Positions 31 to 24,426 of a stretch of 32,938 bases of DNA are shown here, piece after piece (the stretch's first letter is position 1; every line of letters starts with the position of its first letter). The stretch spans positions 1 to 32,938 of the forward strand of contig NZ_JAGHZZ010000033.1 of NCBI RefSeq assembly GCF_017745095.1. The letters are read 5' to 3'. The DNA comes from Sporocytophaga sp. GTDB lineage: Bacteria > Bacteroidota > Bacteroidia > Cytophagales > Cytophagaceae. The position numbers and the translations under genes are program-made. The notes beneath the pieces are model-generated. The model was not told the DNA's origin and made no database searches. It saw only the letters and a program-made list of their open reading frames with translations.

Positions 31-75
31 TCTCTTGCTTAAGTTTATTTAACTTAAGCCTTCAAATATGAGCAA
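31..75 (+). repeat. Dispersed intergenic hairpin element, copy A
   Basis: Contains a perfect inverted repeat: GCTTAAGTT at 37-45 and AACTTAAGC at 51-59 around a 5-nt TATTT loop. It is followed by a degenerate CAAATATGAGC, which matches the CAAATGAGC segment of other copies (2432, 8975). First of at least 13 related copies in the window. It lies directly upstream of the broken gene at 79-446; the gene it would follow is outside the window. Confidence 0.7.
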
Positions 76-78
76 AAT

Positions 79-446
79 ATGGAAATAAAAGATTTGATAG
101 GAAAGAAAATCGTTGACTTAATATCTACGGTAAGCGAATTTGAATACCAAGGAGGTATTCCTTTAGAGAAATCAGATAGTTTTATGGTTTTGGATGATGG
201 TCACTTTATAAGATTTCCACAAAAAAATGAAAAGCATATAGATTTGGAAAAGTGAGCTCCCTATGATTTAAGAAGTATTTTTGAGTATGATATAGAAAAT
301 CGTTTTTCACAAAGGTATTAAATTTGATTTTTAACAATGACGAATCTGAAATTATAAAACAGAATAAAAAGAATGTCCAGTTTCGAAAGATTACAGAAAT
401 CTACTATCAGGAAGATAAATGTTACCCAGCTAGTGCACGTTTATAA
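79..446 (+). pseudogene. Broken small hypothetical gene
   Basis: ATG at 79 opens a 58-codon frame (begins MEIKDLIGKKIVDLIS) that ends at TGA 253-255. The same frame continues past the TGA as APYDLRSIFEYDIENR. Near the T5 run at 303-307 the protein-like frame moves by one base and runs on as a good coding frame (KVLNLIFNNDESEIIKQ..., ending CYPASARL) to TAA at 444-446. One nonsense codon plus one single-base loss would explain both breaks, giving an ancestral product of about 122 aa. I do not recognise the family; it is short, charged and lacks a signal peptide. Either a decayed orphan or a real gene with sequence errors. Confidence 0.5.
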
Positions 447-627
447 TTCGTGCAATTTGTGATAGATTGAAAATATCAGATAATAAAAGTCAATTTAATA
501 TAAGGCTCTTTGGCATGGTACGCGAGTGTTCGAGAAGAGAATAAGGAGTAATCACTCATCTCAATGGATAGTGAAGTACATTAAAACCTGCAAATGCAAC
601 AATATTAACCGTTAGATGGCATTTTAA

Positions 628-1148
628 ATGAAACATAAAATAAACATTATATACAAAAATAAATCCCTTAAAAAAACAGGCAAAATTTTAATGATTATTG
701 GAGGAATTGCATTGTTATTATTGATGATTGTGAATTTACCCGTTAAAGAAATGCCTGGAGAATTGAAAGCTTTTTATTATCAAGAATTGGTGTCGATAAT
801 ATTTTTAAAAGTAATTTTTGGGGGAGGAGTAATAGGTGCTTTGGGCATGATGATTTTTTTAGTTGATTTTAGTAAAAAAGGAGTGATTGATATTGGAGTG
901 GATGAAATAACTATTTTTTCGAAAGATTCCAGTTTAAAAATAAAACAATCCGAAATAGAAAATTTATTTTTATTGAAAAAAGATACTCTTGTAAACTTGA
1001 AATTAAATTAAAAGATAAAAATATACATAGATTGAAATTTCCAGAAAACCGCAAAGCTAAGGCAAAATTGACTGGGGATTTAATTAAGTTCAGCTTGGAT
1101 AAAATTGAAATTGATACAGGAGTTTTTGAATCAATAGAAGGAATATAA
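628..1148 (+). pseudogene. Frameshifted two-TM membrane protein
   Basis: ATG at 628 opens a 127-codon frame with two hydrophobic segments (about residues 18-36 and 56-78), then a soluble part with alternating charge (begins SKKGVIDIGVDEITIF) that reads like a small PH-like or YcxB-like beta domain. The frame stops at 1009-1011. From an A6 run at 976-981, the frame one base back gives a convincing continuation (RYSCKLEIKLKDKNIHRLKF... to FESIEGI) ending at TAA 1146-1148. Restoring one A would give one protein of about 173 aa. The layout of two TM helices then a beta-rich tail resembles the intact gene at 18643-19095. The family is not certain. Confidence 0.6.
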
Positions 1149-1215
1149 GCGCAACCTAACAGCGTCCAAAATATGTCTTGCTGATATGCTGATAGAAAGT
1201 GAAAACCTTTAAATT

Positions 1216-1250
1216 CTCGCTCTCGCTTACGTTTATATAGCTTATGCCCA
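1216..1250 (+). repeat. Dispersed intergenic element, degenerate copy B
   Basis: CTCGCTTACGTTTATATAGCTTATGCCC aligns with the palindromic core of the other copies (copy C at 2402 has CTTGCTTAAGGTTAACTAACTTATGCCC). The pairing is partly lost. It lies between the broken gene ending at 1148 and the tautomerase remnant at 1289. Confidence 0.45.
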
Positions 1251-1288
1251 AAAAATAGACTAATAATAAAATAACATTCTGAGATAAG

Positions 1289-1492
1289 CCAATAATCGAA
1301 TTTACAGCAGGAAAACTAACAAGAGAAGTAAAAGACAAACTTATAACACAGCTTACAGACATTTCTGTGGAGATTACAGGAATACCAAAGCATTTGTTTT
1401 TTATAACAATTAATGAAAAACCTGACGAAGATATTGCTGTTGGAGGTGTTAGTGTGCAAAAGCTAAAAGAAGAATTAGACAAACAGAAATAA
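1289..1492 (+). pseudogene. 4-oxalocrotonate tautomerase-family gene lacking a start codon
   Basis: The frame from 1289 reads PIIEFTAGKLTREVKDKLIT, continues through ISVEITGIPKHLFFITINEK and VGGVSVQKLKEEL, and stops at TAA 1490-1492 (67 codons). This is the size and pattern of the tautomerase (4-OT) superfamily, in which Pro after the initiator Met is the catalytic base. Here the codon before that Pro (1286-1288) is AAG, and an in-frame TGA lies at 1280-1282, so there is no ATG, GTG or TTG start. The bases read GATAAGCCA where ATGCCA is expected, which a 2-bp AA insertion inside the ATG could explain. Homology of the body is clear; the gene is probably not translated as written. Confidence 0.65.
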
Positions 1493-1535
1493 AATCAAAT
1501 ACATATTCTAGCAAATACTAACAATTATAATCTAC

Positions 1536-1919
1536 ATGAAAAATACATTAATCTTAACACTCATTTGTTTAGTTACAGCCTGCATCCCAGATAATGTCAA
1601 AAAAGAAATGTCAGAGGGGCTGTCTGACGCTCAACAGATGGTTGCTGATATGGAATTTAAAAAAGCCATTGCTCAGATAGAATTACATAGATTGAGATAT
1701 GGACACTATCCGGATTCTTTATCAGAGTTGAAATTTCTTTCTTCTATGGATTCCTCAATGATTAGCAATGTTGATTACACAAGACTTGACTCTGTCTATG
1801 AATTAAACCTGAAGATGGAATCGGTCTCGTTGGATAGTAAAGAAACTACTCCAATCAAGTTAAAATATCCTGCTGAATTTTGGGCCGGACTAGGTTGTGT
1901 CAAATCGAATGTAAAGTAA
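1536..1919 (+). CDS. Small lipoprotein
   Basis: 127 aa. The N-terminus MKNTLILTLICLVTACIPDN is a type II (lipoprotein) signal peptide with lipobox VTAC, so Cys16 should be lipidated. The mature part has a helix (about residues 38-55, KAIAQIELHRLRYGHYPDSL) and then beta-type sequence ending near the Cys at residue 121. The RYGHYPDSLSEL stretch resembles the segment after the N-terminal helix in GspG/pseudopilin-like proteins, but the pilin-type N-terminus is absent. Function unknown. The next gene starts 17 nt after the stop, so the two may be co-transcribed. Confidence 0.75.
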   Translation: MKNTLILTLICLVTACIPDNVKKEMSEGLSDAQQMVADMEFKKAIAQIELHRLRYGHYPDSLSELKFLSSMDSSMISNVDYTRLDSVYELNLKMESVSLDSKETTPIKLKYPAEFWAGLGCVKSNVK

Positions 1920-1936
1920 GATAATGCTTCGGGACA

Positions 1937-2371
1937 ATGATAACAACTAATAAAGAAGAAAGACGGCTACCTGAGACAATTCTTAACAAAGCCATTAGGA
2001 GCGGAAACGAGTTTGGTTGGCGTCAGACTGACTTTATAGAGACAATTGAGGCAGCGAGAAAATTAAAAATGGGAATTGTCGGTGGACAAGTCCAGTATGT
2101 TTTCCCTGACGGGACATGTGAATTATACTGGTTGTCGTATGACCCAAGTGAAAGACAAGTTGGAGAAGACTGGATAAAGTATTGTAATCGAACTTCGGAC
2201 GAAACAATAAAAAAATTTAAGGACTTAATAACTAAAACGGACTTTGATAAAGAAACTTTTACATTTGACTTTCTTCGAGATAAAAAATTAAAAGGAGTAA
2301 GCATTGAAGACAATAAAGTATTTATTATTTACTTTAATGACACTGAGACTGATTTGTGGACCGGTGAATGA
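1937..2371 (+). CDS. Conserved hypothetical protein, immunity-like
   Basis: 144 aa, no signal peptide or TM segment. Notable patches are AIRSGNEFGWRQTDFIETIE, IVGGQVQYVFPDGTCELYWL and a C-terminal beta-strand-like GVSIEDNKVFIIYFND. The compact acidic make-up with conserved W, G and P residues recalls small cytosolic conserved proteins of Bacteroidota found near polymorphic-toxin or orphan loci. That parallel is impressionistic and I assign no function. The stop is followed 31 nt later by repeat copy C. Confidence 0.7.
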   Translation: MITTNKEERRLPETILNKAIRSGNEFGWRQTDFIETIEAARKLKMGIVGGQVQYVFPDGTCELYWLSYDPSERQVGEDWIKYCNRTSDETIKKFKDLITKTDFDKETFTFDFLRDKKLKGVSIEDNKVFIIYFNDTETDLWTGE

Positions 2372-2401
2372 ACATTACTTTCAGTAAAATTTATAATCCT
2401 A

Positions 2402-2447
2402 CTCTTGCTTAAGGTTAACTAACTTATGCCCACAAATGAGCAAGTTT
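2402..2447 (+). repeat. Dispersed intergenic element, copy C
   Basis: CTCTTGCTTAAGGTTAACTAACTTATGCCC followed by ACAAATGAGCAAGTTTTTAAA. It carries the palindromic core, the CAAATGAG segment and the start of the CAAGTTTTTAAC hairpin. It also contributes an in-frame ATG at 2426 to the next gene, which creates a spurious upstream start. Confidence 0.65.
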
Positions 2448-2455
2448 TTAAAATA

Positions 2456-2794
2456 ATGAAACTTGATACTAAACTTACAGATTTTATAATTCATAATACT
2501 CAACTTAAAAGAGATGAGATAAAACCACAATTGAAACTTACCGAAGATATAGGTTATCATGGATTAGACTCTATAACATTCATTGAGGCATTTTTTACTG
2601 AATTTGAAATAAAAAATATTGAGAATTTTTGCTTTGATCTTTACATTGATGGAAGACCTGATTTTGTGCCTAGACCACTAAATTGGACTAAGAATTTAAT
2701 TTTTAAAAATGGCAGAAAATATTTAAATCCGGATGTTTCGTTAGAACACCTTCAAAAAGTGATAGATAAAGGTGAATGGTTTAACGAAAGGTGA
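2456..2794 (+). CDS. DUF1493 family protein (acyl-carrier-like)
   Basis: 112 aa from ATG 2456. The frame could start at ATG 2426, but that ATG and the codons after it lie inside repeat copy C, so the downstream Met (MKLDTKLTDF) is preferred. The body has the DUF1493 layout: an N-terminal helix (FIIHNTQLKRDEI), then LKLTEDIGYHGLDSITFIEA, then an EFEI..FDLYIDG segment and a C-terminal helix. The fold is related to acyl carrier proteins; the Ser in GLDS sits where ACPs carry the phosphopantetheine Ser, though modification in this family is not established. Single gene bounded by repeat copies C and D. Confidence 0.7.
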   Translation: MKLDTKLTDFIIHNTQLKRDEIKPQLKLTEDIGYHGLDSITFIEAFFTEFEIKNIENFCFDLYIDGRPDFVPRPLNWTKNLIFKNGRKYLNPDVSLEHLQKVIDKGEWFNER

Positions 2795-2801
2795 ACAACC
2801 A

Positions 2802-2833
2802 TCTCTGGCTTAAGTGTATCTGACTTTTATACC
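2802..2833 (+). repeat. Dispersed intergenic element, copy D
   Basis: TCTCTGGCTTAAGTGTATCTGACTTTTATACC begins 8 nt after the stop of the DUF1493-like gene. It matches the CTCTGGCTTAAG left arm seen in copies F and K; the right arm is degenerate. Confidence 0.55.
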
Positions 2834-2870
2834 CTGATTAATTATCAAATAAATACTGACTTTTTTACTT

Positions 2871-3716
2871 ATGACTAATCCCCAACAAAACAAATCACAG
2901 TGGCAAGATCAAGCTGATCTTAAACCTGGTATTGAACGGCACATCTGGCCATTCGGTAATGAAAAAACTATTGTCACCAAGTCAACATCCGATAGACTTT
3001 TTGGCTCGGAGGGCCTGGGGTTCAAAAACAACATATGGATGAAACTCGTAAGTTTTCTGGCGCGAACGGGGATTCAAGAGCAAACTGCCTCTGAAAAGAA
3101 CGAGACAGATATCGCAAATTGTGTAAAGGGTTGGGGACAAGGTGCGAATTCGAGCAGGGTATTTCATGCAACAAAAGGAGTTGACCCAGTCAGAATGGAA
3201 ATGTTTATCCAAAGGCTTCAGCATATCAGCACAGAATTTGGAATTAAAGACAACCGATTAACACATGATGTGTTGGCTGCATTTGTTAATACACAAAAGG
3301 CGGAGCCTTATTTAGCATGGAATGGCCTTCGGGAAACTAAGGGGTTCATTAAAAGAAATCAATCTCGATTCAGAGGACATATTCAATGGCAATCTTTTGT
3401 TGCCTTGTGTGGTCACATTGACAATAGTGGAGTGAAGCATATCACTCCTGAATTGATTCGTACTTTTTTTAACAGCCCAAAGCCTTTCTTCAATCTCATT
3501 GTAGAACGGAGAACTCACCTTTTGCAAGGCACCATTATACCAGGAAGCAAAACAGGACTAATGGCAGATGCTCAAGACTATATAGACGTAAAAGCAACAG
3601 ACCTGGAATATATGAGGAACAAGAGTGGTTTGGGTTTAGTGCTCAAAATCCTTTGGTACATGATTATGAATAAGAAATCAAAGCTTGGGCCTCTGCCGAG
3701 AGAAGAAAGGACATAA
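2871..3716 (+). CDS. Hypothetical protein, 281 aa
   Basis: Unrecognised. No signal peptide. The protein is rich in W, F, N and R, and its codon use looks less AT-biased than its neighbours. Seen in order: a basic, Trp-containing N-terminus (KPGIERHIWPFGNEKTI), a helical middle (PVRMEMFIQRLQHIS), a segment DNSGVKHITPELIRTFFN that loosely resembles an EF-hand loop and helix, and a C-terminal stretch GLGLVLKILWYMIMNKKSKL hydrophobic enough to associate with membrane. It stands alone, with about 190 bp of gene-free sequence before the terminator at 3911. The different base composition suggests possible acquisition from outside. Coding status is well supported by length. Confidence 0.65.
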   Translation: MTNPQQNKSQWQDQADLKPGIERHIWPFGNEKTIVTKSTSDRLFGSEGLGFKNNIWMKLVSFLARTGIQEQTASEKNETDIANCVKGWGQGANSSRVFHATKGVDPVRMEMFIQRLQHISTEFGIKDNRLTHDVLAAFVNTQKAEPYLAWNGLRETKGFIKRNQSRFRGHIQWQSFVALCGHIDNSGVKHITPELIRTFFNSPKPFFNLIVERRTHLLQGTIIPGSKTGLMADAQDYIDVKATDLEYMRNKSGLGLVLKILWYMIMNKKSKLGPLPREERT

Positions 3717-3910
3717 GGAGCCAGCTATCGGCCTTTGTAACAGGTAATTTGTGATGGAGTAATAAGGTTAGATATTATATAAAGTACATCGCGTTTGGAT
3801 GCTAATGTTTACAAAAGAATTAGGAGTAATCAGTATTTGTAGAGTTGGAAGATTTACTTTGCAGTAATAGGAGTAATGAATTGTCGAGAAAATTGTGCAA
3901 TAATATTTTG

Positions 3911-3944
3911 AAAAATAGCCCCGCTAAAAAGCGGGGCTATTTTT
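3911..3944. terminator. Bidirectional intrinsic terminator
   Basis: AAAAATAGCCCCGC / GCGGGGCTATTTTT around a short TAAAAA loop, flanked by A and T runs on both sides, so it can end transcripts from 2871-3716 (plus) and from the FG-GAP gene (minus). A near-identical hairpin recurs at 11821-11854. Confidence 0.85.
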
Positions 3945-3990
3945 ATATTTGGAGGAGAAGGCTGATGAAATAAAGTTTATAGATTATGTC

Positions 3991-4053
3991 TCACCAGTTA
4001 AAAAACTTACTCTCATTTTTGGGTTAAAGTCAATAGACTTCAATCAGAGAAGG
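3991..4053 (-). repeat. Dispersed intergenic element, copy M (minus orientation)
   Basis: Read on the minus strand it gives TTCTCTGATTGAAG..., AAAAATGAGAG, then AAGTTTTTTAACTGG, matching copies F and G (CTCTGGCTTAAG, CAAATGAGTGAGAG, TTTTTAACTT). It begins 6 nt past the stop codon of the minus-strand sorting-domain remnant (4060) and is followed by the terminator at 3911-3944. This is the same order as copy G plus the terminator at 11821. Confidence 0.6.
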
Positions 4054-4059
4054 TTAAGA

Positions 4060-4243
4060 TTATTTCCTCATTACGGAAAACTTACCGGTCATACCTCCAG
4101 AAGTACGAATGCTATATGTGCCATTTTTAAGATCTTCAATATTTATTTCCACTTCAGACTTATGAGTAATGATTTTTTACACTCTACTCCCAGAATATTA
4201 TAAATTATAATCTCTTCATTCTGTTTAAGACCCATAATATTGA
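4060..4243 (-). pseudogene. Out-of-frame T9SS type A sorting domain of the FG-GAP protein
   Basis: Downstream of the stop of the FG-GAP gene, other minus-strand frames encode the rest of a Por-secretion (type A) C-terminal domain. NMINIMGLKQNEEIIIYNIL continues as GVECKK; then, after an A6 run (about 4174-4179), a third frame gives HKSEVEINIEDLKNGTYSIR followed by TSGGMTGKFSVMRK and TAA at 4060-4062. This matches the pattern IYPNPS-n-(I/V)YNxLG-n-LxNGxYxxR-n-GKFxVxK. Adding one A at each of two A runs would restore a continuous reading frame with 4244-6685. Confidence 0.75.
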
Positions 4244-6685
4244 TCATATTTCTGAAGGATTAGGATATATTCTAATTGCTTCATGTTGCGGCTTATTCAA
4301 AGATGTTATTGCGGAAAGAGATAATAGATATGGTGTCTGATCTTCACCAAAGCTATTGGTAGTTGTTAGCTTTCCGGAAGCAAGACCGATAGGAACTATA
4401 AATTCTATCGTGTTTTTATCCTTAATAGTAAAATCAATATTCTTCGATCCTACAGAAAGATTGGTAACATCAGAGAAGTTAATCCCACTAACGGTTATTT
4501 TCTCTCCTGCACGGGCTGTTTTGGGTAAAAAATCTTTAATTATTGGGAGGTTGACTATCTGTGAATTGTTGAAATAAAAAATCACACCGCTGTTATCCTC
4601 TTGTATTAAATCAATCCTTCCATCATTATTCAGGTCAAAAGTCTTCCCGGGAGCATACCAGTCCGTCTGAAAAGAAAATGCTTCATTGTAAAGATCTTCT
4701 GATAAAGAATGTATTTTGGTTGTTCCTATGTTATTGTTTTCATTGCTCCAATTGGTGATAAGATCATCATCTCCATCATTGTCAAAGTCTCCAGTGCCAT
4801 TAGTGATTACTTCATCAAAAGCACTGTAAATATTTGAAGGTTGTTCAACAAGCTTAGTGCCATTCCAATAGTAGACTCGCATCCTAAACAAACCATTTTT
4901 TATTACCAGATCGGGAACACCATTCCTGTCAAAATCTCCAATGGAAAAATTATCTTGTATATTATTAATACTGTCTGTTGCAATAAAATTTCCATGTCTG
5001 TCATTTAATTCTAATCTGAATTTATCTTGATCACTTAGAGAAAAAACAGCATCCATAAAACCATCACCATTAAAATCTGCTAATTCCATGTTTGTAACAT
5101 CTGTTATCAAAGGAGAGGCAATGAATGTACCATTGGCTTGTGATTTATAGATTCTGAGAAAGTCTCTATATTTTGATTCATAAGATATCATCAAGTCTGG
5201 CCTGCCATCACCTGTAATGTCTTCACAAACCATTTGTCTGATCATTCCTTTTAGTGTATCTAATTTGGAAAAAGAAGAGAAGTTGAAATTTGGAGCTGCT
5301 AATGCAAATTTTAAAGTATCAGATGCATATGCAATCACATCATCATTTCCATCTGCATTTAAATCACCGACATGAATTGCAGAAAGATTCTTATATAATA
5401 TTTTATTCTGAAGTCTTGCAATATCGTTTTGATCTATTGTGTACCAGGCAAGATAACTATCATAATAGCCAAAAGCTTCCTGAACCAGAATGTCTTTATT
5501 TCCATCCATATTTCCATCACCAAAAGCTATATTTCTAAATCCCGGGTAGGCATATGGAGCGTTTAGAGTACCATTGGAATTCCCTGTAATAATTGAACTG
5601 AGGTTCTCCAGGGAAGGTGCAGTAATAATATCTTGTATTTTGTCATTATTGATATCCTGAATTTCAATATTATTAAGATTGGTCGTAGACAGCTGATAGG
5701 AGACAACATCCAATGCAGGGCTGAATTTACAAATGGTTACTTCCTGGTTTTGAATTGAAATTACCTCATCAACATTATCGCCATCTAAATTGATCTTTTT
5801 AAGCGTTGTTCCTGCGCTCCCTCGGGTATATTCCAATGGGGTTTGAAATTGTCCCTGGCCATTTCCTTTAAATAAAACAAATCCGACAATAATGTCACTG
5901 CCAGCTATGTCTTGGTTACCATCACCATTAAAATCTCCTGAAGTAACATAATAGACAGACTGAGTTGTGTTTAGATCGGACTTTTGATAGTTATAAATAC
6001 CTTCAGACAAATAAACACTTATTTGTTTCATTCCCTGTGCAAGAATTATATCCGGAATAGCATCATTATTTAAATCACCTGTGTGAATGTGTCCATTGCC
6101 GCCTTTTATAGAATGGGCCAAAGAAAAGTTTCCTGCTCCATCTCCAGCATAAATGTTAAGGTAACTGGAACTACCTTCATTAATAGAAACCGCAACATCG
6201 ATTATATTGTCCTTATTAAAATCTGCTAATCGAAATTTATCATTAATAGATCCTAAATATAACCCACTGGTTTTGGTGAATGCTCCAGACTTATTGTTTA
6301 ACCATACCGAGAGGCCAGCTGAGCCACTGTATTGAAGCATCATCAGATCAGGGTAGTTGTCACCATTAAAATCTCCTGTTTCTATGCCGCCGAGACCATC
6401 GTATGAAAGATCGGAATAAACAGTTGTTACAACCGGAGGATTAAAAACTCCATGATCAGTAGCTATTAATACTGAGTATTTTTTATCCGATACATAAATG
6501 AGATCCTGTTTGCTGTCATTATTTATATCAGCTGCTGCTATATCTTCAGGTTCATTAGGAGAGGTGTTAAACCCCACTTTAAAAGTATTTGGAAAATAAG
6601 CAGCATGTTGCTTAATCGAAACCTGTCCAACTAAAGGAAATAAAAAAATCAGGTTTAAAGAGAAAAAGGTTATCAAGTGTTTCAT
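4244..6685 (-). CDS. Secreted FG-GAP/VCBS repeat protein (T9SS substrate, C-terminus frameshifted)
   Basis: 813 aa from ATG 6685 (MKHLITFFSLNLIFLFPLVGQ, a Sec signal peptide). An in-frame upstream Met at 6721 would put charged and hydrophobic residues before the signal and is less likely. The body is a series of about 14 FG-GAP/VCBS-type repeats with the calcium-binding pattern DxNxDxxxD, for example TGDFNGDNYPDLMML, SGDFNGDGNQDI and VGDLNADGNDDVIAY, as in integrin-alpha-like beta propellers. Then comes an IPT/TIG-like domain (FLPKTARAGEKITVSGINFS) and the start of a type A sorting domain (AIRIYPNPSEI), where the frame stops. The remaining sorting domain lies out of frame at 4060-4243. Intact relatives are exported by Sec and T9SS and attached to the surface or released; as written, this one would lack the signal. 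Confidence 0.9.
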   Translation of the reverse strand: MKHLITFFSLNLIFLFPLVGQVSIKQHAAYFPNTFKVGFNTSPNEPEDIAAADINNDSKQDLIYVSDKKYSVLIATDHGVFNPPVVTTVYSDLSYDGLGGIETGDFNGDNYPDLMMLQYSGSAGLSVWLNNKSGAFTKTSGLYLGSINDKFRLADFNKDNIIDVAVSINEGSSSYLNIYAGDGAGNFSLAHSIKGGNGHIHTGDLNNDAIPDIILAQGMKQISVYLSEGIYNYQKSDLNTTQSVYYVTSGDFNGDGNQDIAGSDIIVGFVLFKGNGQGQFQTPLEYTRGSAGTTLKKINLDGDNVDEVISIQNQEVTICKFSPALDVVSYQLSTTNLNNIEIQDINNDKIQDIITAPSLENLSSIITGNSNGTLNAPYAYPGFRNIAFGDGNMDGNKDILVQEAFGYYDSYLAWYTIDQNDIARLQNKILYKNLSAIHVGDLNADGNDDVIAYASDTLKFALAAPNFNFSSFSKLDTLKGMIRQMVCEDITGDGRPDLMISYESKYRDFLRIYKSQANGTFIASPLITDVTNMELADFNGDGFMDAVFSLSDQDKFRLELNDRHGNFIATDSINNIQDNFSIGDFDRNGVPDLVIKNGLFRMRVYYWNGTKLVEQPSNIYSAFDEVITNGTGDFDNDGDDDLITNWSNENNNIGTTKIHSLSEDLYNEAFSFQTDWYAPGKTFDLNNDGRIDLIQEDNSGVIFYFNNSQIVNLPIIKDFLPKTARAGEKITVSGINFSDVTNLSVGSKNIDFTIKDKNTIEFIVPIGLASGKLTTTNSFGEDQTPYLLSLSAITSLNKPQHEAIRIYPNPSEI

Positions 6686-6811
6686 AAAGGTAAAAATAAT
6701 AATTATACTGATAATGATCAATATTCCTCCTTTTGGATTGAATTTGATACCATGTTTTTAACTTGGAATTTGTAATGCAGAAAAAGAAGAAAATAGATAC
6801 ATATTCTGAAA

Positions 6812-6899
6812 AATAAGCCGATAAAAATGGCAAGGGGGAAATAGAGTTTATTGGAAAGTAGCCTGCAAGTTAAAAACTTGTTTACATTTGCGGGTAGAT
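6812..6899 (-). repeat. Dispersed intergenic element, copy H (reversed)
   Basis: The stretch TTGGAAAGTAGCCTGCAAGT..TAAAAACTTG..TTTACATTTGCGGG (6851-6894) is almost identical to 11888-11933. It contains the CAAGTT-AAA-AACTTG hairpin. Its left part (AAAATAAGCCGATAAAAATGGC) is a decayed version of the terminator hairpin at 3911 and 11821. Read on the minus strand it has the CAAAT...CAAGTTTTTAACTTG order of the forward copies. Confidence 0.65.
6883..6890 (+). promoter_or_regulatory. Candidate Bacteroidota -7 box (TACATTTG) inside repeat H
   Basis: TACATTTG fits the Bacteroidota -7 consensus TAnnTTTG and lies 29 nt before the preferred ATG at 6920. No TTG is seen at the usual -33 distance, so the support is only the -7 match and its position. 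Repeat copy I offers the equivalent TAAATTTG before 11991. Confidence 0.35.
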
Positions 6900-6919
6900 T
6901 AGCAAACATTATAAATAAA

Positions 6920-7846
6920 ATGGGAGAAGCATTAATTACTTGGGGTATTATAATTTCAATAATAATTGGACTGAGATATTTTTTTAAGAAGAAAAAAGGA
7001 TATCGAAGACAGTATTCATTGGGCCTGATAGCTGCAGAGGAAGTTCAAAAGTTAATAAAAAATAAAGCTTATAGTGAAGCAGAAAAAAAAATACAAAATC
7101 AAAGTTTAAATGATATTACACAAATTATTGATCATTTGTCTCTATCTCTTAATGAAGATGAATTATTAAAATGGGATGAATCTGAAAATAGTGATATATC
7201 CAAACTTACTTTAGGTGTTTTCTATTTGCATCTGGCTTGGATAACCAGAAGTCACAAGCTTGCTAAAGATGTTTCGCAAAAAGATGCAGAAGGTTTTTAT
7301 GATTATCTTGATTTATGTGAAAAAACTTTTGAATCAATTTCAGCAGATTCGTTTTATAGACCCGAGTTAGAATCAAGAAATATTAGGTTATATATGAGTT
7401 TAGGTGATAATTCAATAGCTTCTTATTTTTTTGATACCGTGACTAAAAAACATCCCGATTTTATTTGGCCTTATATTCATTATGCTGAGCTGATACAGCC
7501 TAAATGGGGGGGAGCGATCGAAGATTTAGAAAGATTTTATGAAAGCTTACCTGATAACTTCTTAATTCGTTCTATTGTAGAATTAAAGCTCATTCTAGAT
7601 TCCAACATTATGAGTGATAATTATTTTGTAAAATATAATAATAACATCAATGAGTTTGCTCGACAAAAAGTTATAAAGATTGATGCAGAGTTAAATTTAA
7701 ATAGTGTTAGTTCTATTCACAAGTATATTTTATATAATTATATGGTGGCTATATCTGAGGATTTAAAATTAAATGATTTAAGTAAGAAATATCAAAAATT
7801 AGTGGATGGAAAATACACTATCTACCCATATGGGTTGGTGAATTAG
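6920..7846 (+). CDS. Membrane-anchored DUF4034/TPR-like protein
   Basis: 308 aa from ATG 6920 (MGEALITWGIIISIIIGLRY). An upstream TTG at 6851 is in frame, but the residues between are encoded by repeat copy H, so it is rejected. One N-terminal TM helix (about residues 8-22) is followed by a KKKKGYRR stop-transfer patch, which predicts a cytoplasmic C-terminal domain. That domain is helical and contains GVFYLHLAWITRSHKLAKDV, CEKTFESISADSFYRPE and HYAELIQPKWGGAIEDLERF. The AW..R, then P, then PKWGG pattern recalls DUF4034 proteins, which have TPR-like repeats. Role unknown. Confidence 0.75.
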   Translation: MGEALITWGIIISIIIGLRYFFKKKKGYRRQYSLGLIAAEEVQKLIKNKAYSEAEKKIQNQSLNDITQIIDHLSLSLNEDELLKWDESENSDISKLTLGVFYLHLAWITRSHKLAKDVSQKDAEGFYDYLDLCEKTFESISADSFYRPELESRNIRLYMSLGDNSIASYFFDTVTKKHPDFIWPYIHYAELIQPKWGGAIEDLERFYESLPDNFLIRSIVELKLILDSNIMSDNYFVKYNNNINEFARQKVIKIDAELNLNSVSSIHKYILYNYMVAISEDLKLNDLSKKYQKLVDGKYTIYPYGLVN

Positions 7847-7958
7847 TCAACAGAGGTAAGATTATAATGGTGCAATTTGTTGTTTGGGTAGTGATGTCCT
7901 TTAAAGTCATACCTAAAACGACACTTAATTTTAGAGGTAATTAAACACAATAAATAAA

Positions 7959-8405
7959 ATGAGATTGTTCTGGGTATATATAATATTTGCTATAATCCCG
8001 TATATGTTAGAGACTTTTGTCGACTCTTATAAATATCATGTAACTGGGTTATTTTTAGAATTGCTTCCTTTGTTCCTTATGACCGGGTTATGTTCATTTT
8101 TATTTAAAAAGTCGATAAGCACTCAAAAGTTTATATGGATTTTCTTAAAATTGACTGGGACTTCTATAGCTGGTTACTTATCGGCAGAAATGATCTTATT
8201 CTTTCAATGGTATTGGTATATAGCTCCTGAATATAGAAACATTCCTGGTGACATGCTTGAAGGACTTGGTTTTCGAATTTTGTATTCTATTATATGGTTC
8301 ATTTCAATTGTAGTCTCTTATCTGATAATTCTTAATGCATTAAAATCATTCACAAAACCAAAAGCCAATTCCAGTTTAATACAAAAAAGTGAGTCTGGCC
8401 AATAA
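7959..8405 (+). CDS. Four-TM membrane protein
   Basis: 148 aa. Hydrophobic segments near residues 3-20, 29-49, 57-80 and 103-128, with a short charged C-terminal tail (KPKANSSLIQKSESGQ). The loop FQWYWYIAPEYRNIPGDMLE between TM3 and TM4 is the only polar stretch of note. No family recognised. It lies 112 nt after the previous gene with no terminator visible, and about 90 nt before repeat copy E. Confidence 0.7.
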   Translation: MRLFWVYIIFAIIPYMLETFVDSYKYHVTGLFLELLPLFLMTGLCSFLFKKSISTQKFIWIFLKLTGTSIAGYLSAEMILFFQWYWYIAPEYRNIPGDMLEGLGFRILYSIIWFISIVVSYLIILNALKSFTKPKANSSLIQKSESGQ

Positions 8406-8496
8406 AAAATTACCGTTGCATCTACTGCGTTTATATTGCGACCAATTAGTGATATGGATAAGGTTAAATGATAAAAGAAGATTTTATATTAAGCCT

Positions 8497-8530
8497 TGCA
8501 CTTGCTTAAGCTTATTCAATTTGTCACCAA
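8497..8530 (+). repeat. Dispersed intergenic element, copy E
   Basis: TTGCACTTGCTTAAGCTTATTCAATTTGTCACCAAATAAG aligns with the core TTGCTTAAGNTTATTTAAC; the right arm is degenerate. It lies between the four-TM protein and the 124-aa orphan, which is itself followed by copy F. Confidence 0.55.
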
Positions 8531-8549
8531 ATAAGATACTAAAAAAAAC

Positions 8550-8924
8550 ATGGAGGAAGGAGTAATCGATTTTTATAAGGGTTATGAAGGAGAGCCAGAG
8601 ATTGATTTTATTTTAAAGGATTCTTCTGGTGGTATTTTTGTTGTGTTGAAATTATGGATTAGATTCTTTGATTCTATAATGAATTTAATAAAACCGAATG
8701 ATAATGGGCTGTGGGAGGGACTTTTGATACATTATCATTTACATACGGGGTGGTATGATATGCCCGAGTGGTTATGTGATAATACATATCTTTTCTATAA
8801 TCAGTTAAAAGGTATCGATATTGTGAGTCTTTCAGATACAGAGATTAGCGTACTCACTGAATTAATGAGTCTGGTTAAGTTGTCTACCATACTTAAATAT
8901 AGTCTTTATATTAAATATGATTAA
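8550..8924 (+). CDS. Hypothetical protein, 124 aa
   Basis: Unrecognised, acidic, without signal or TM segment. Aromatic-rich centre LLIHYHLHTGWYDMPEWLCD. The C-terminal half (SLSDTEISVLTELMSLVKLS) looks like amphipathic helix. Size, composition and isolation between two same-orientation repeats (E at 8497, F at 8934) match small cytosolic immunity-type orphans of Bacteroidota, but there is no sequence motif to prove it. Confidence 0.65.
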   Translation: MEEGVIDFYKGYEGEPEIDFILKDSSGGIFVVLKLWIRFFDSIMNLIKPNDNGLWEGLLIHYHLHTGWYDMPEWLCDNTYLFYNQLKGIDIVSLSDTEISVLTELMSLVKLSTILKYSLYIKYD

Positions 8925-8933
8925 GGAAAGTTC

Positions 8934-9010
8934 GTCTCTTTCGTTCTCTGGCTTAAGCTTTCAAAAAATAAGTCTACAAATGAGTGAGAGTTTTTAACTT
9001 ACGGTTTTAA
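8934..9010 (+). repeat. Dispersed intergenic element, copy F (near full length)
   Basis: Contains in order CTCTTTCGTTCTCTGGCTTAAG, AATAAGTCTACAAATGAGTG, and GAGAGTTTTTAACTTACGGTTTT. It aligns along its whole length with copy G (11708-11790). It starts 9 nt after the stop of the 124-aa gene. Confidence 0.7.
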
Positions 9011-9079
9011 TAGTATCAATATGAAATCAGCAATAACTGACTATTTTGATTTCCAGATCATCTTAAAAAAAAACAATTA

Positions 9080-9472
9080 ATGGATTATAGAATCATAAAG
9101 CATATTCTTTACATAGTAAGTTCATTCGTTATAGTGATATTCAGTATTAATGAAATTTTCAATGGGTTACATGACCACGGACAAGTGGGAATGTTGATTG
9201 GGTTAATTATTTCACCAATTATCCTTATTCCCATTATTTATAAGATGAAATGGTGGATTAAAATAATCTTAATCATCTCATTAATATTAATCCCTTTTCC
9301 TTTAACAAAATTCACAATGAGGTTTTTATATTCATTTCAAGAAGAAGGGACAGGAATGGCTAACATTGGACTTGATTTAATAGGGTGCCTTTTATTTTTT
9401 GTAATTTCCATATTAATAATCGAATTAGGATTAGCATTTAATAAACACGGAAAATGGAATGCGAATATTTAA
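9080..9472 (+). CDS. Four-TM membrane protein
   Basis: 130 aa, very hydrophobic. Segments near residues 6-25 (HILYIVSSFVIVIFSINEIF), 35-54 (GMLIGLIISPIILIPIIYKM), 57-76 (WWIKIILIISLILIPFPLTK) and 97-120. A Gly-containing polar loop (FQEEGTGMANIG) precedes TM4. No family recognised. Repeat copy F lies upstream and a pseudogene of another small membrane protein lies downstream. Confidence 0.7.
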   Translation: MDYRIIKHILYIVSSFVIVIFSINEIFNGLHDHGQVGMLIGLIISPIILIPIIYKMKWWIKIILIISLILIPFPLTKFTMRFLYSFQEEGTGMANIGLDLIGCLLFFVISILIIELGLAFNKHGKWNANI

Positions 9473-9642
9473 GTGTAATATCAGTGAGACATTTTTTTTG
9501 TTGTTTGATGAAATTTTTCAATTTGATATTACCAATTCATTGTCCTGCTTAGTGAATAAATAGTAACCTTTTTCAAAATATTTAAACTTCTTAGGTAAAG
9601 GTATAGATCATAAGAATGCTGAAATATTGAATTACTTATAAA

Positions 9643-9995
9643 ATGAAAGATTTTATAAAGAGATTAAAGCTTATAGATCATTTGAGGACAAGCTTACCAA
9701 TGAACAGAATTGAGTTTGTATAAAATTATCCAAAGTAACCGATAAGAGTGATTTAGGGATGTTTTCAGATATTAATGATGTGTTTTCATTTGCTAAAAAT
9801 GAATTTAATGGATAATTAAATTTAAAAGGATTTAAACTCAAGAAAAATAGGCGATTTTTTGACACGAATTTGAATATTGGCATCGCAAATGGAAAGGTAA
9901 ATGAAGATAACGGTGAGCTGATTATTGAGGCTGAGATAAGCGGTATTAGGAAATATTTTATCTTTTTCTATTTATTTATGATTGTTTTTTTTTAA
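9643..9995 (+). pseudogene. Broken small membrane-anchored protein
   Basis: ATG 9643 opens MKDFIKRLKLIDHLRTSLPM, ending at TAA 9721. One base back, the frame continues as KLSKVTDKSDLGMFSDINDV and FSFAKNEFNG, meets TAA at 9813, and resumes in the same frame as LNLKGFKLKKNRRFFDTNLN, then IGIANGKVNEDNGELIIEAEISG and a C-terminal hydrophobic stretch, ending at TAA 9993-9995. The pattern (FSxxxxxFxGxxxxxxFxxxxxRRFFDxNLN) fits a family of small proteins with C-terminal TM segments common in Cytophagia and Flavobacteriia. One lost base plus one stop codon. The ancestral product was about 117 aa. Confidence 0.6.
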
Positions 9996-10078
9996 ATGGT
10001 GTGTAAAATATTATTGGCCATTTTGTTGTCTATAGGATAATAGTAGCAAGAGAGGAAAGAGAAAGAAACAAATTCAGT

Positions 10079-10423
10079 CTAATTTCCCAGAATAATCTTC
10101 TGTCTGTGTTGATTTCCCCATTTTTCCATAGCCGTTAAGACTTCATTCAAAGTTTCACTATAATCTGTCAATTCATACTGAACCGTAACAGGTTTCGTCT
10201 CGCCAACTTTACGACTGACCAATCCATTCATTTCCAGCTCCTGCAATTCTTTAGATAAAATTCGTGGGGAAATTCCTGCTTCTCTTGACAATTCATTAAA
10301 ACCTTTCTTGCCACTTCTTAAAACTGAAATCAATACCAATTTCCATTTTCCTCCAACTACATCCAGTGTATCCCTTATAGCTAATTTAGCTTTTGCACAA
10401 CTTTCAACAGTATGTTTTTTCAT
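10079..10423 (-). CDS. HxlR-family transcriptional regulator
   Basis: 114 aa, the whole family length. A winged helix of the HxlR type: DVVGGKWKLVLISVLRSGKK, then GFNELSREAGISPRILSKEL (recognition helix region), LEMNGLVSRK and VQYELTDYSETLNEVLTAME. Cys9 (HTVESCAK) sits just before helix 1, where family members such as YodB and HypR carry a thiol that senses quinones, diamide or hypochlorite; sensing here is inferred from position. Divergent from the pirin gene at 10847. Tandem repeats with an 18-bp period lie directly upstream (10427-10459) and could be its own operator. Confidence 0.9.
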   Translation of the reverse strand: MKKHTVESCAKAKLAIRDTLDVVGGKWKLVLISVLRSGKKGFNELSREAGISPRILSKELQELEMNGLVSRKVGETKPVTVQYELTDYSETLNEVLTAMEKWGNQHRQKIILGN

Positions 10424-10426
10424 GCG

Positions 10427-10474
10427 CTATCCTTTTTGTAAGTACTATTCTTTTTGTAACAGATGACAAATGTA
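10427..10474 (-). promoter_or_regulatory. Candidate HxlR operator (tandem repeat, 18-bp period) and -7 box
   Basis: CTATCCTTTTTGTAA at 10427-10441 and CTATTCTTTTTGTAA at 10445-10459 differ in one position and are spaced 18 bp apart. Just beyond, CAAATGTA at 10467-10474 reads TACATTTG on the minus strand, a TAnnTTTG -7 box for the HxlR gene. A bound regulator would sit between this box and the start codon, suggesting autorepression. Confidence 0.5.
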
Positions 10475-10789
10475 TAGTATTATTTTGGATATTTGATCCA
10501 ATCAAATATTAAATCTTATGTCACAAAAAATAAATAAAACAGAGGATAGATGAACTGGTAAATACCTCCATCATGAATGATGAAGTCTGTGTGGACAGTT
10601 CATTTTGGGTAAGTTATATAAAGCATTCATCCTAAATAAAAGTTCCCAAAATGGTAGTCAGTAATATTCTAAGAAAATGAATTTTAGGAACACTATTGCT
10701 AATGCTAAAGACTTATTTAAGTGATGCTTTTGTTACCCATATAAAACTTCAGGAATCATAGCAAGGGCAATATTTATTCAAGTTGTTTT
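10475..10789. other. Gene-free stretch between HxlR and pirin
   Basis: About 315 bp with no coding frame, tRNA or strong terminator that I can see. It should hold the pirin promoter, but no convincing TTG / TAnnTTTG pair was found. Confidence 0.4.
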
Positions 10790-10846
10790 ATGATTCATTT
10801 TTCCGAACTAAAACAACGTTTGTTAATTGTAAAAATCAATAATATT

Positions 10847-11701: not shown

Positions 11702-11707
11702 AACTAT

Positions 11708-12611: not shown

Positions 12612-12745
12612 AAAATGTGTACAAATTATTTTTGCTAAATGTGTAGTTAAACCTACCTCTTGTCCTTGCTCCTGTGAAGATGCGGATAGGGAAGAAGGCG
12701 GCTTATTATATAACTTAAATTATAATAGAAACGTAAAATACCCAA

Positions 12746-13015
12746 ATGATACTTTATCTAACTCTCATAGTAACTTTAATTATTTTAAAAGGAATCGGTC
12801 ATATATTGTTTAATAATATCGTAAGTAGAAACCATCTTCAAAATTTAGACTCTAAAGATTATCCATTTATTTTTCAAAAGATTAATGCAACTGTTCATTT
12901 GACTGATGATAAATTGGTAAAGGATAAATTAAAATTTGTGAAATATTATTTCATGTTTTTAATGTTGTTGGTTCCAGTTGTATTGGTTTTATTAATTACG
13001 ATAAAATTAAAATAA
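12746..13015 (+). CDS. Small two-TM membrane protein
   Basis: 89 aa. N-terminal hydrophobic helix (residues 1-22, ILYLTLIVTLIILKGIGHIL), a polar middle (SRNHLQNLDSKDYPFIFQKI, then TDDKLVKDKLKFV) and a C-terminal TM helix (67-86). Both termini would be on the same side. No family recognised. The 134 bp before it contain a short cysteine-rich frame I do not consider coding. Confidence 0.5.
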   Translation: MILYLTLIVTLIILKGIGHILFNNIVSRNHLQNLDSKDYPFIFQKINATVHLTDDKLVKDKLKFVKYYFMFLMLLVPVVLVLLITIKLK

Positions 13016-14969: not shown

Positions 14970-17588
<2,619 letters not shown>

Positions 17589-20880: not shown

Positions 20881-20894
20881 TTTATTAGTTAGTT

Positions 20895-21938: not shown

Positions 21939-22082
21939 ATGAGTACATTTTCGACTGATGAAATAGGTTTAGAGGATAATATTCCTCAAATTAAAAAGTT
22001 ACTTACATTTGTAGACAGAAGTTCAAAGGCATTTAGTCAGATGAAAGAATACTCGCAGATGGCTTACTTTGAGATGCTATAA
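21939..22082 (+). CDS. Possible 47-aa small protein
   Basis: ATG 21939 to TAA 22080-22082. Starts MSTFSTDEIGLEDNIPQIKK, ends QMKEYSQMAYFEML; mostly amphipathic helix. It sits 30 nt before the YdcF-like gene in the same orientation. A TACATTTG (22005-22012) inside it could be a -7 box for the next gene, which would instead make this a promoter region. No homology recognised; it could be a remnant. Confidence 0.3.
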   Translation: MSTFSTDEIGLEDNIPQIKKLLTFVDRSSKAFSQMKEYSQMAYFEML

Positions 22083-22910: not shown

Positions 22911-22951
22911 TGTTTGAATTAACAAAAAATTCAGCTACTGCCAATCTTAAA

Positions 22952-22984
22952 CTCTGGCTTAAGCTTATTTAACCTAAGCCAGAG
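22952..22984 (+). repeat. Dispersed intergenic element, copy K (perfect hairpin)
   Basis: CTCTGGCTTA (22952-22961) and TAAGCCAGAG (22975-22984) are exact reverse complements around a 13-nt centre that contains AGCTTATTTAACC. This is the best-paired copy, and it sits between converging genes (22910 and 23007). There is no T run after it, so it is not a classical terminator. Confidence 0.75.
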
Positions 22985-23006
22985 GGTACAATAACCTGAA
23001 AGAACA

Positions 23007-23612
23007 TTAATCTATCACAACACTTTCAAGACCTTTCTGCAGCGCTGTTCCTTGCAGTCCTGCAACTCTCAGCCCTTCTACACGGAACGTGGTAATGTCG
23101 GTAATGCCAAGAAATCCGAGTATAAATTTTAGATACGGACTAACGAAATCAAATGACCGAAAATCGCCTTCGGAATAAACACCGCTTGAAGCGATTGCGA
23201 TATATGCCTTTTTATTTTTTAAATAACCTTCGCTCGTTCCGTCTTCTTTGTAACGGAAAGTAATTCCCGGTCTTGCAATGTGGTCTAAATATGCTTTCAA
23301 TGTGGATGGAATTGCGAAATTATAGAATGGTGCACCAAAGACATATATGTCCGCTTCTTGCATTTCTGCAATCGCTTCATCTGAAATTCTTATTGCTTTT
23401 GCTTGCTCTGGAGTATGATTTTCAATAGGAGTAAACCACGAACCAATTTGCAATCCGTCCAAATGCGGAAATGCTTCCTTTGCTAAATCCCTTTCTTTCA
23501 CAATGTTGAAGGGGTATTTCGCCTGGATTTTTTTAATGATTGTGTTGCCTAATTGTTTGCTGATTGAAGCCTCACCTTGAGGGCTTGTAATAATGTGCAA
23601 TATTTTTAGCAT
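23007..23612 (-). CDS. azoR: FMN-dependent NADH-azoreductase / quinone reductase
   Basis: 201 aa from ATG 23612 (MLKILHIITSPQGEASISKQ); the in-frame ATG at 23666 would start inside the regulatory region. AzoR family of the flavodoxin-like fold: FMN phosphate loop SPQGEASISKQL, then ADIYVFGAPFYNFAIPSTLK and YLDHIARPGITFRY, and IASSGVYSEGDFRSFDFVSP. The enzyme reduces quinones and azo compounds with NADH, working as a dimer. Divergent from an HxlR regulator (23721), the classic arrangement for YodB-AzoR type control in response to quinones or diamide. Confidence 0.92.
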   Translation of the reverse strand: MLKILHIITSPQGEASISKQLGNTIIKKIQAKYPFNIVKERDLAKEAFPHLDGLQIGSWFTPIENHTPEQAKAIRISDEAIAEMQEADIYVFGAPFYNFAIPSTLKAYLDHIARPGITFRYKEDGTSEGYLKNKKAYIAIASSGVYSEGDFRSFDFVSPYLKFILGFLGITDITTFRVEGLRVAGLQGTALQKGLESVVID

Positions 23613-23641
23613 CGTTTTTACTTTTAAATGTTTTAATGGTA

Positions 23642-23713
23642 CAAAATTATCTACATTTGCTAACAAATAGTTAGTAGTAAACTAAAGGTTAGTAGTAACA
23701 TTCAGGTTACTTT
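23642..23713. promoter_or_regulatory. Divergent azoR/HxlR control region with 18-bp-period repeats
   Basis: GTTAGTAGTAA occurs at 23670-23680 and 23688-23698, and a third partial unit GTTACTTTTAG begins at 23706, all 18 bp apart. Two possible -7 boxes lie beside them: TACATTTG on plus (23652-23659), toward HxlR, and TAATTTTG on minus (complement of 23642-23649), toward azoR. The same 18-bp spacing is seen upstream of the HxlR gene at 10423, with a different sequence. Confidence 0.55.
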
Positions 23714-23720
23714 TAGGAAG

Positions 23721-24080
23721 ATGAAGCAGAAAATAATCTATTCAGAGGTGCAATGCACTAAACACATTAGCGCTGTTGAAGACGCTTTATATGTGTTGGG
23801 TGGTAAATGGAAATTACGAATTATTATTGCATTGATAAGCGGACACAATCGTTTCAATGAATTGCAACGAATAATTAAAGGTATTTCGGCAAGAGTGCTT
23901 TCAAACGAATTGAAGCAATTAGAATTAAACGGTTTAGTAGAAAGAGTTGTACAAGCAGACCAAGTTCCTGTTGTTATAGAATATATTGCTACGGACTATG
24001 CGGCAACACTCAAAGAGGTGGTTGGAGCATTAGCTGATTGGGGGCAAAAACACAAAAAGAAAATTACAGCTAACCGATAA
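23721..24080 (+). CDS. HxlR-family transcriptional regulator
   Basis: 119 aa. HxlR winged helix: AVEDALYVLGGKWKLRIIIA, GHNRFNELQRIIKGISARVL, NELKQLELNGLVERV, then VIEYIATDYAATLKEVVGAL and a basic tail. Cys12 (EVQCTKHIS) lies just before helix 1, the position of the redox-active Cys in YodB-type proteins. Divergent from azoR with 108 bp between the starts. Expected to repress azoR and itself until the thiol is modified; this is inferred from family and layout. Confidence 0.92.
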   Translation: MKQKIIYSEVQCTKHISAVEDALYVLGGKWKLRIIIALISGHNRFNELQRIIKGISARVLSNELKQLELNGLVERVVQADQVPVVIEYIATDYAATLKEVVGALADWGQKHKKKITANR

Positions 24081-24426
24081 TCTTTTTGAGGTGCTTAATT
24101 TACAAATCTGCTAAGTTTTTTATCATTATATACAGTTTGATTCAATATTCTGTTAGAGTGTTCCTGCTTGTCGATCTGTGTCCTGCAGAACAGATCTTTT
24201 CAAGAGAACGAAGGTAGCCAATCCATAAAAGACTTCCCCTGGCTTAAGTTTAATTTAAGTGAGTAGTTATTAATTGTTTGATTTTTAGTTTATTGAATTG
24301 TTTTGTGCATAAATGAAACAAATAGATCGGTGAAGTTCTTTTTTATTTTACTACTTTTAGATAGTTGTTTTTTTTATTGAATTTTAATTTTCTGATCTTA
24401 AAAAGATTGACTATAAATTTTTACAT
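24081..24426. other. Gene-free stretch after HxlR
   Basis: 346 bp without coding frames. A weak hairpin GATCTG / CAGATC (24173-24196) followed by TTTT may end the HxlR transcript. Repeat copy L lies at 24236-24262. The rest is very AT-rich leader of the T9SS gene; TATAAATTTT just before the ATG is close to, but not, a -7 box. Confidence 0.45.
24236..24262 (+). repeat. Dispersed intergenic element, partial copy L
   Basis: CCCCTGGCTTAAGTTTAATTTAAGTGAG keeps the CTGGCTTAAG left arm and a short CTTAAA/TTTAAG pairing. It lies 156 nt past the HxlR stop. Confidence 0.5.

Follow-up and report, generated by a model that had tools for sequence, protein, structure and literature searches.

The whole contig C26 (32,938 bases; NZ_JAGHZZ010000033.1) of Sporocytophaga sp., referred to here as the window, belongs to a genome of 6.63 Mb in 64 contigs (G000) and carries a dispersed family of short repeats built from two hairpins, H1 and H2. 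These repeats are quite probably the ends of an element encoding a RAYT (REP-associated tyrosine transposase; TnpA_REP, an HUH Y1 single-strand transposase), together with shortened derivatives of that element. At the level of sequence, this is indicated by the anatomy of the ends, a series of deletion forms, conserved base pairing, and the concentration of the copies in one genus. The autonomous form of about 760 bp consists of a left end (H1 + H2), an AT-rich leader of about 40 nt, and a terminator-like hairpin with symmetric arms; the transposase gene, of about 181 codons, follows, with an inverted right end (H2 + H1) a few bases past the stop codon. Internal deletion gives mini-elements of 224–239 bp and some longer forms of 351–505 bp. 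By analogy with the TnpA_REP family, the transposase would bind beside H1 to ends that have folded as single strands and would move both the full-length and the mini forms. Single copies and solo ends would then be remnants and decay products, and each insertion would leave a bidirectional terminator between genes as well as a landing site for insertion sequences (ISs).

Structure of the two-hairpin ends

Two covariance models were built from aligned copies. The seed of model R1 comprised six copies, two of which came from the window, and that of model R2 comprised nine copies, all from two congeners. Since the R2 seed contains congener copies only, all R2 matches in the window are out of sample. 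The window was scored with both models with the filters off, the match lists were run to E 10, and a copy was regarded as supported when either model scored it at E ≤ 0.01.

The unit of about 60 bp reads CTCT, H1 (GGCNGAAGTC..GACTTCNGCC or GGCTTAAGTT..AACTTAAGCC), YACAAATGAGAG, and H2 (CAAGTC..GACTTG). The order of blocks given in the initial annotation of this contig, namely a palindrome (H1), CAAATGAG, a second hairpin (H2), and GGTTTATA, was borne out. The annotation had also proposed a check for compensatory base changes, and the pairs of H1 and H2 indeed covary. Among 117 matches (111 distinct rows), 90.8% of the cells were paired, 13 of the 16 pairs were changed on both sides, and none of 500 shuffles reached any of the observed measures; the alignment had been fitted to the structure, which favours the structure in this test. 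When the structure was slid along the alignment, pairing dropped to 49.1% or less. Single-stranded DNA folds of intact ends gave exactly H1 and H2, with z scores of about −6.6.

The H1 stem-loop measures about 24–27 nt. Among the 95 copies that form 8 or more of the 10 pairs, 57 end H1 with C-Y-A-C (GT[AG]G when read on the opposite strand), and the last G of this motif is shared with the stem. H1 is therefore like a repetitive extragenic palindrome (REP) in being a palindrome of 20–40 bp with a GT[AG]G foot. An outer half hairpin, CCCTCTGGGYTAAGTCTG-like and with a short spacer, was observed upstream of H1 at C37:11762 and C63:49000 and at G002:C6:308326 and G003:C1:757120 in two congeners; it resembles the 5' arm of another H1 and perhaps reflects a nested insertion. 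No Rfam family was found at the gathering score in the window or in the loci L021, L008, and L014.

The transposase gene and the full-length element

Searches of the genome gave eight matches for Y1_Tnp and 12 for the transposase protein. Intact genes were found at C61:66-611 (182 aa) and, in a congener, at G002:C6:307625-308167; the two are 96% identical, and both proteins match Y1_Tnp (PF01797) above the cut-off. H60, H62, W123, Y144, N148, and P149 were invariant in 14 aligned proteins. A profile of 14 relatives scored 4er8 (labelled TnpArep; E 4.3e-8) as the best of six PDB sequences, a structure that comes from E. coli. Judged from its domain, its HUH and Y...NP motifs, and this sequence relation, the transposase is a TnpA_REP/RAYT (class 2 TnpA_Y1).

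The complete element (769 bp; G002:C6:307558-308326) contains the gene between inverted H1-H2 ends; a few bases separate the stop codon from the right H2. In the element of the own genome (C61:15-768), the gene is intact and the right end keeps H2, and an IS cuts the element before H1. The initial annotation had offered, among other options, an unnamed short interspersed repeat; the family is not a repeat without a transposase, since a gene with these ends is present both in G002:C6 and in C61. Its statement that the family is not tied to a transposase in the window holds as far as C26 itself is concerned, which gave no Y1_Tnp or transposase match, but not beyond it, because transposase genes adjoin copies elsewhere in the genome.

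Inverted flanks were compared among named relatives of the transposase, for which the best 80 of 185 were taken; 76 of these had enough flanking sequence, and base shuffles alone, not other genes, served as the control. In 64 of the 76 relatives the inverted flank match exceeded all 100 base shuffles, and in 60 the margin was 4 or more. Within the genus, 8 of the 12 transposase loci passed this test. All 19 genomes examined from the family contain relatives of the transposase. In the genus, another transposase lineage, seen at L100, L103, and L097 (G000:C9, G002:C5, and G001:C8), has two-hairpin inverted ends of its own, TCCTCGTTTGCAACGAGGA-like and then GCGATTGTATCGC-like.

Mini-elements and deletion derivatives

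The arrangement of neighbouring copies was analysed with 110 of the 117 matches, after three duplicates (overlap of L205 and L206) and four reverse readings of the H1 palindrome had been dropped. Among the 37 neighbour pairs separated by less than 1 kb, 17 were convergent, 10 were divergent, and 7 and 3 were in the two tandem arrangements, whereas only 8 of 41 more distant pairs were convergent. The 17 convergent pairs comprised nine mini-elements of 224–239 bp, two pairs with an intact gene, four with transposase fragments (C46, L218, L212, and L214), and two others. The mini-elements are laid out as left end, leader, symmetric terminator-like hairpin, and right end. One of them (L206:9412) is cut by an IS, and IS bases are included at one of its ends. 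The longer deleted forms, which carry transposase fragments, span 351–505 bp. The size range of miniature inverted-repeat transposable elements (MITEs) accommodates the nine units of 224–239 bp and two further units of 351–392 bp, both of which contain transposase codons. The pattern E-x-x-[FY]-I-G-stop precedes the right end in three of the nine mini-elements, including that of the window, as well as in C2 and in the intact G002 copy. At C2:175487, a left end is followed by codons 7–14 joined to codons 163–181, and an IS takes the place of the right end. The suggestion in the initial annotation that the repeats could be a non-autonomous mobile element is supported by these convergent units of 224–239 bp with inverted ends and, in three of nine, transposase tail codons.

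All 36 pairs of the nine mini-elements match each other, with 67–87% identity in the longest match. Seven of the nine have a CTTAAG-type (or related degenerate) H1 at one end and a GAAG-type H1 at the other; of the remaining two, an IS interrupts one, and the other is too degenerate to be typed. Because the left end of the C61 copy carries a GAAG-type H1, the sides of the element must be told by the inner sequence. When the 18 flanks of 200 bp were compared, nine BLAST matches were obtained. Two of these were between neighbours with overlapping flanks, and the remaining matches were among the mini-elements G002-6451, G003-2596, and G003-3685. At four of the nine sites the flanks had no similarity to any other site. 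These results indicate that some, not all, of the mini-elements lie in unrelated surroundings. At the mini-element G002:C6:308450, transposase coding sequence was observed on one flank only.

The explanation that competes best with a RAYT element and its derivatives is an ordinary REP/REPIN system (REPIN, REP doublet forming a hairpin), in which a stationary RAYT moves only the hairpins, as doublets, in trans, and the scraps of transposase are local duplications of a REPtron. It matches the published model (PMC6006769, PMC3116915), and it agrees with convergent doublets being the commonest near pairs (17 of 37) and with the flanks common to some mini-elements. However, transposase terminal codons or fragments occur away from intact REPtrons (C2, C46, L212, L218, L214, and three mini-elements), and such units are found on different contigs of the own genome and in three further species. 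We consider this system unlikely.

Several observations weigh against a mobile RAYT element with deletion derivatives. The tail codons were detected by pattern in only three of the nine mini-elements, and two of the 17 convergent pairs are without transposase sequence. The mini-elements differ by 13–33% and most copies in the window are decayed, so that many are old. Three mini-elements share parts of their flanks and two neighbours overlap, so that nesting or duplication explains some of them. A complete full-length copy was seen only once, in G002, the C61 copy being without the right H1, and these two copies could be one vertically inherited locus. Four of the 12 transposase loci of the genus gave no inverted flank match. 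Neither the collinear pairs inspected nor a comparison with L222 as the query gave a clean empty site to set against an occupied one. We infer the mobility of the RAYT element, and the transposase would presumably bind, nick, and move it as its relatives do. For E. coli TnpA_REP, cleavage at CT beside the REP and a crucial role of GTAG are reported in PMC8266576.

Copy number and distribution

A search of the 6.63-Mb genome with R1 gave 30 matches at E ≤ 0.01 and, at the looser limit of E ≤ 10, 44 in all. These counts are lower bounds, as the best 150 of 1780 first-look candidates were scored. The initial annotation would have been refuted by a search giving no excess over chance; the 30 matches at E ≤ 0.01 speak otherwise, as does a search for the H1 pattern, which gave 30 matches in four genomes and none for the reversed control. 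It had further called for counts across the genome and its relatives. In a survey of 59 genomes of the order, in which 87 candidates were scored per genome and the counts are again lower bounds, the copies were concentrated in a single genus. The four congeneric genomes held at least 30, 25, 33, and 36 copies at E ≤ 0.01, and the other 55 genomes gave 0–2 matches each, eight in total, in seven of them. The matches outside the genus (L081-L087) were rejected as members of the same family; by eye, several of the seven look like two-hairpin structures with other H1 sequences.

Within the genome, 10 of the 30 copies are located on C26 and C37, which together make up 46.5 kb or 0.7% of the genome, and none is on C11, C22, C44, and C55 (together 2.04 Mb). 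Seven of the 30 copies, counted by hand, are no more than 100 bases from the end of their contig (C8, C64, C18, C29, C46, C61, and C26), compared with about 0.06 expected by chance for 128 ends.

It seems very improbable that the repeats are transcription terminators or mRNA 3' stability hairpins maintained by selection without mobility. The hairpins are stable (DNA z of about −6.6 for intact ends) and the units contain a terminator-like stem. However, copies occur in both orientations, the ends are tied to the transposase gene, and 10 of 30 copies fall within 46.5 kb instead of following genes genome-wide. Moreover, a consensus terminator scan of positions 1–13000 gave no clear excess, with 8 hits against 6.2 (sd 2.6), a scan that also misses the stems of the mini-elements. 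The option of a 3' processing or stability element raised in the initial annotation is accordingly unsupported as a primary identity, given both orientations and the adjacent transposase remnants. An effect of the units on transcription is possible as a by-product, given the terminator-like hairpin.

Relation to known systems

The nearest known kind is the REP/REPIN system, and the only description covering it in Bacteroidetes among the papers listed by the literature searches is that of TnpA_Y1 subclass 2.6 (RAYT group 5) with "atypical secondary structures" as flanks; its proteins of about 179 aa carry NH[LIV]H, WQ, and YIH[QN]NP (PMC6006769). The present system resembles this subclass in its Y1 transposase of about 180 aa with WQ and YIHxNP, in its hairpin flanks with copies elsewhere, and in its occurrence in Bacteroidetes. 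It differs in that each flank can be read as an inverted end made of two hairpins, the unit has deletion derivatives, and GT[AG]G is present at the H1 foot (57 of 95 copies), whereas the account of subclass 2.6 in PMC6006769 reports none. The query has WQ and YIHENP, and its NHYH departs from NH[LIV]H; other aligned rows have NHVH, NHIH, and NHLH. By these motifs, subclass 2.6 is a candidate placement, and so is subclass 2.4, with NH[IFV]H, WQ, and YIxNNP (Table 1, PMC6006769).

The H1 foot resembles that of classical REPs (PMC6006769, PMC8266576). REPs usually number over 100 copies per genome (PMC2817692), compared with at least 25–36 per genome at E ≤ 0.01 here, and at least 44 for the genome of the window when matches up to E ≤ 10 are counted. 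The REPINs of Pseudomonas as described in PMC3116915 share with the present units the inverted palindrome doublets, here the commonest near-pair arrangement, the singlets as probable remnants, and the tie to a RAYT. In contrast to those REPINs, the mini-elements here are about 230 bp long, include a terminator-like hairpin and in some cases transposase codons, and have two different hairpins per end. The units are also like MITEs, which are 100–400 bp long, have inverted ends, and arise by internal deletion from an autonomous copy (PMC3116915), except that the partner here is a RAYT; the same source describes RAYTs as single copies that are apparently incapable of mobilising themselves. The system works like a REPIN system, but one that contains, beside the element, forms of the whole transposase unit shortened by deletion.

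One proposal traces REPINs back to the ends of an IS200-like ancestor (PMC3116915), and the coexistence of the full element with deletion derivatives is the state proposed as ancestral to REPINs. The complete, partly deleted, and miniature forms in one genus provide a series for testing the movement of RAYT units and the origin of REPINs. In addition, the "atypical" flanks of the Bacteroidetes subclass are resolved into two-hairpin inverted ends in this lineage.

Copies in the window

Of the 13 copies listed in the initial annotation, eight are supported by R1 or R2, at 31, 2402, 3991(−), 6812(−), 8934, 11708, 11888(−), and 17398. One is borderline, and four are unsupported: that at 1216 scored E 2.8 and 1.4 in R1 and R2, that at 24236 scored E 4.0 in R2 and was not listed by R1, and those at 2802 and 8497 appeared in neither list down to E 10. 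The borderline copy, a possible solo H1 hairpin at 22952–22995 (+), scored E 0.21 in R1 and 0.068 in R2, yet it folds with a 10-bp stem. An additional copy, absent from the earlier list, was found at 21975–22042 (−) and represents a right end (R1 E 4.6e-8, R2 E 0.011). The earlier remark that most copies are degenerate was correct for the window; far clearer ones are held by contigs C37 and C8.

The best-preserved structure is a complete mini-element (MITE/REPIN-like) of 231 bp at positions 11725–11955 (+), defined by convergent model matches and belonging to a length class common to eight others. Two congener mini-elements align over its length with 77% and 74% identity. Its left end (H1 + H2) occupies 11725–11796 (+; R2 E 3.8e-6), and its right end (H2 + GAAG-type H1) occupies 11887–11955 (−; R2 E 3.9e-6; R1 E 9.9e-15, the copy being in the R1 seed). 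Between them, the symmetric terminator-like hairpin AAAAATAGTCCCG..GCGGGGCTATTTTT was read in the sequence at 11821–11855 and forms the central stem of the folded unit; the consensus terminator scan did not report it. The residual C-terminal transposase codons E-M-E-Y-I-G-stop are located at 11874–11894 (+), and the intact congener gene ends E-V-E-F-I-G-stop.

Two decayed mini-elements were also recognised. The first, half-decayed, spans 3899–4054 (−) and keeps a terminator-like hairpin at about 3911–3944 and a right end at 3982–4049 (−; R2 E 4e-6 at 3979–4049); it aligns with congener mini-elements over 125–160 bp with 70–81% identity. The second, at 6751–6907 (−), has a right end at 6854–6907 (−) with an intact H2 (R1 E 7.3e-5) and likewise aligns with congener mini-elements. 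The remaining copies are a solo left end at 8946–9016 (+; R2 E 7.1e-8, R1 E 6.5e-7), a degenerate left end at 2402–2480 (+; R2 E 0.0012, R1 E 1.6e-5), a copy reduced to H2 and inner sequence with H1 lost at 17372–17430 (+; R2 E 0.0011, R1 E 0.0017), and a left-end H1 with a degenerate H2 at 32–104 (+; R2 E 2.2e-4, R1 E 1.3e-5). The last directly adjoins an IS end at the end of the contig (2–27, −), which fits the IS-end pattern with no mismatch.

The copies had been described as all intergenic. Six of the 13 (1216, 2402, 3991, 6812, 11708, and 11888) overlap open reading frames (ORFs) of the mechanical list, at 1156–1482 (−), 2426–2794, 3949–4203, 6851–7846, and 11704–12066 (−). We judge these overlaps to be due to early alternative starts (2426 and 6851) or to spurious short ORFs; a Pfam scan gave no match for the ORFs at 2426–2794 and 6851–7846. 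The description does not follow directly from that list.

Gene modules and the island around the repeats

To follow the sequence beyond H1, the H1 pattern set was reduced to 29 copies by removing one palindrome that had been read twice. In 24 of these, H1 continues into a CAAATG-like sequence, and in the other five the sequence changes abruptly within five bases. Two of the five breaks are at ISs, two are the borders of one gene module, and one is at another H1. This module, at C61:1534-2408, shares 96.3% identity with G001:C1:932706-933579, compared with 88% between G001 and a conserved window gene taken as a yardstick. The homology stops on the right just after H1-CCCAC in both genomes and starts on the left just after H1-CCCACA in C61. 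The module consists of a single 260-codon ORF (G000:C61:1500-2405) that has different surroundings in the two species, with an H1 at each border in G000.

There is a slim chance that the H1 foot (CYAC/GT[AG]G) is a nick-and-join site of the transposase which also serves in inserting or exchanging single-gene modules between species. This is kept as a minor possibility because the H1-break events are few and partly non-independent. If it were true, islands would expand through RAYT activity into gene arrays, the equivalent of integron arrays for a single-strand transposase.

Judged from the arrangement of the ends and of the genes, it is hardly credible that the repeats are attC-like recombination sites of an integron-like cassette array, since a Y1 transposase lies between inverted ends, both orientations are found among the copies, and the island genes shared between species are mostly collinear, even though small single ORFs with palindromes between them are present and the 875-bp single-gene module, which has other surroundings in G001 at 96.3% identity, has its borders at H1. 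Integron-like shuffling of genes, which a first comparison had suggested, was dropped as the main reading when, with the conserved flank included, most blocks proved collinear, with indels between them. The exceptions are a G003 block (window 1520–1919) that is out of order and some blocks that match other contigs, such as window positions 1256–1492, which match G002:C12 and G003:C9.

The window region 525–30990 looks like an indel hotspot, in four species, beside a conserved Mur-ligase gene. This gene (29523–30896; Pfam) has matches of 90, 88, and 85% in G002:C6, G001:C1, and G003:C1, and many other gene blocks of the window have close matches on the same congener contigs, where their order is almost unchanged and large indels occur. 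Three inspected gaps of G002 hold elements. Among the congener copies of window gene blocks, 10 of the 28 fetched loci, those with close gene matches, were scanned; three had an element within 90 bp and seven did not, so that the elements do not simply travel with the genes. Many of the small proteins among the 20 window proteins scanned were without a Pfam match. One border of a 3.6-kb indel between congeners (L213:12780-12900, L220:3200-3340) lies at another hairpin, GATGCCATCGCTTGAAGCGATGGCATC.

Insertion sequences at the repeats

The IS ends TGT[GC]TCGTCC were found at 25 distinct sites in the four genomes, after one tandem overlap had been removed from 26, and perhaps belong to two related ISs. 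Six of the 25 are in an element or at most five bases from one (G000:C26:2-27, C37:8133, C46:30, C61:3, and C64:3; G002:C6:311619). An IS end joins an element at the contig ends of C26, C61, C64, and C46 and, by eye, also of C29. An ORF with an rve domain is present in the IS at C37.

IS3- and IS110-family elements are known to target REPs (PMC1525189). The present sites resemble the insertion of IS1397 and ISKpn1 into REPs described there in that IS ends lie inside a REP-like element, with an rve-domain ORF at one site. They differ in host phylum and target, and the IS here is recognised by its ends and the rve ORF. Among the other IS sites, a GGCTWWAGCC palindrome lies no more than 80 bases away at four, which, as a raw count, hints that the IS targets palindromes, and two have a AGTAAGCCT-like string, likewise a raw count. 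A different palindrome, GCACG..CGTGC, followed by a shared tail, AATTTGTG, was observed in the same islands at window positions 434–465 and near position 84000 of G000:C8.

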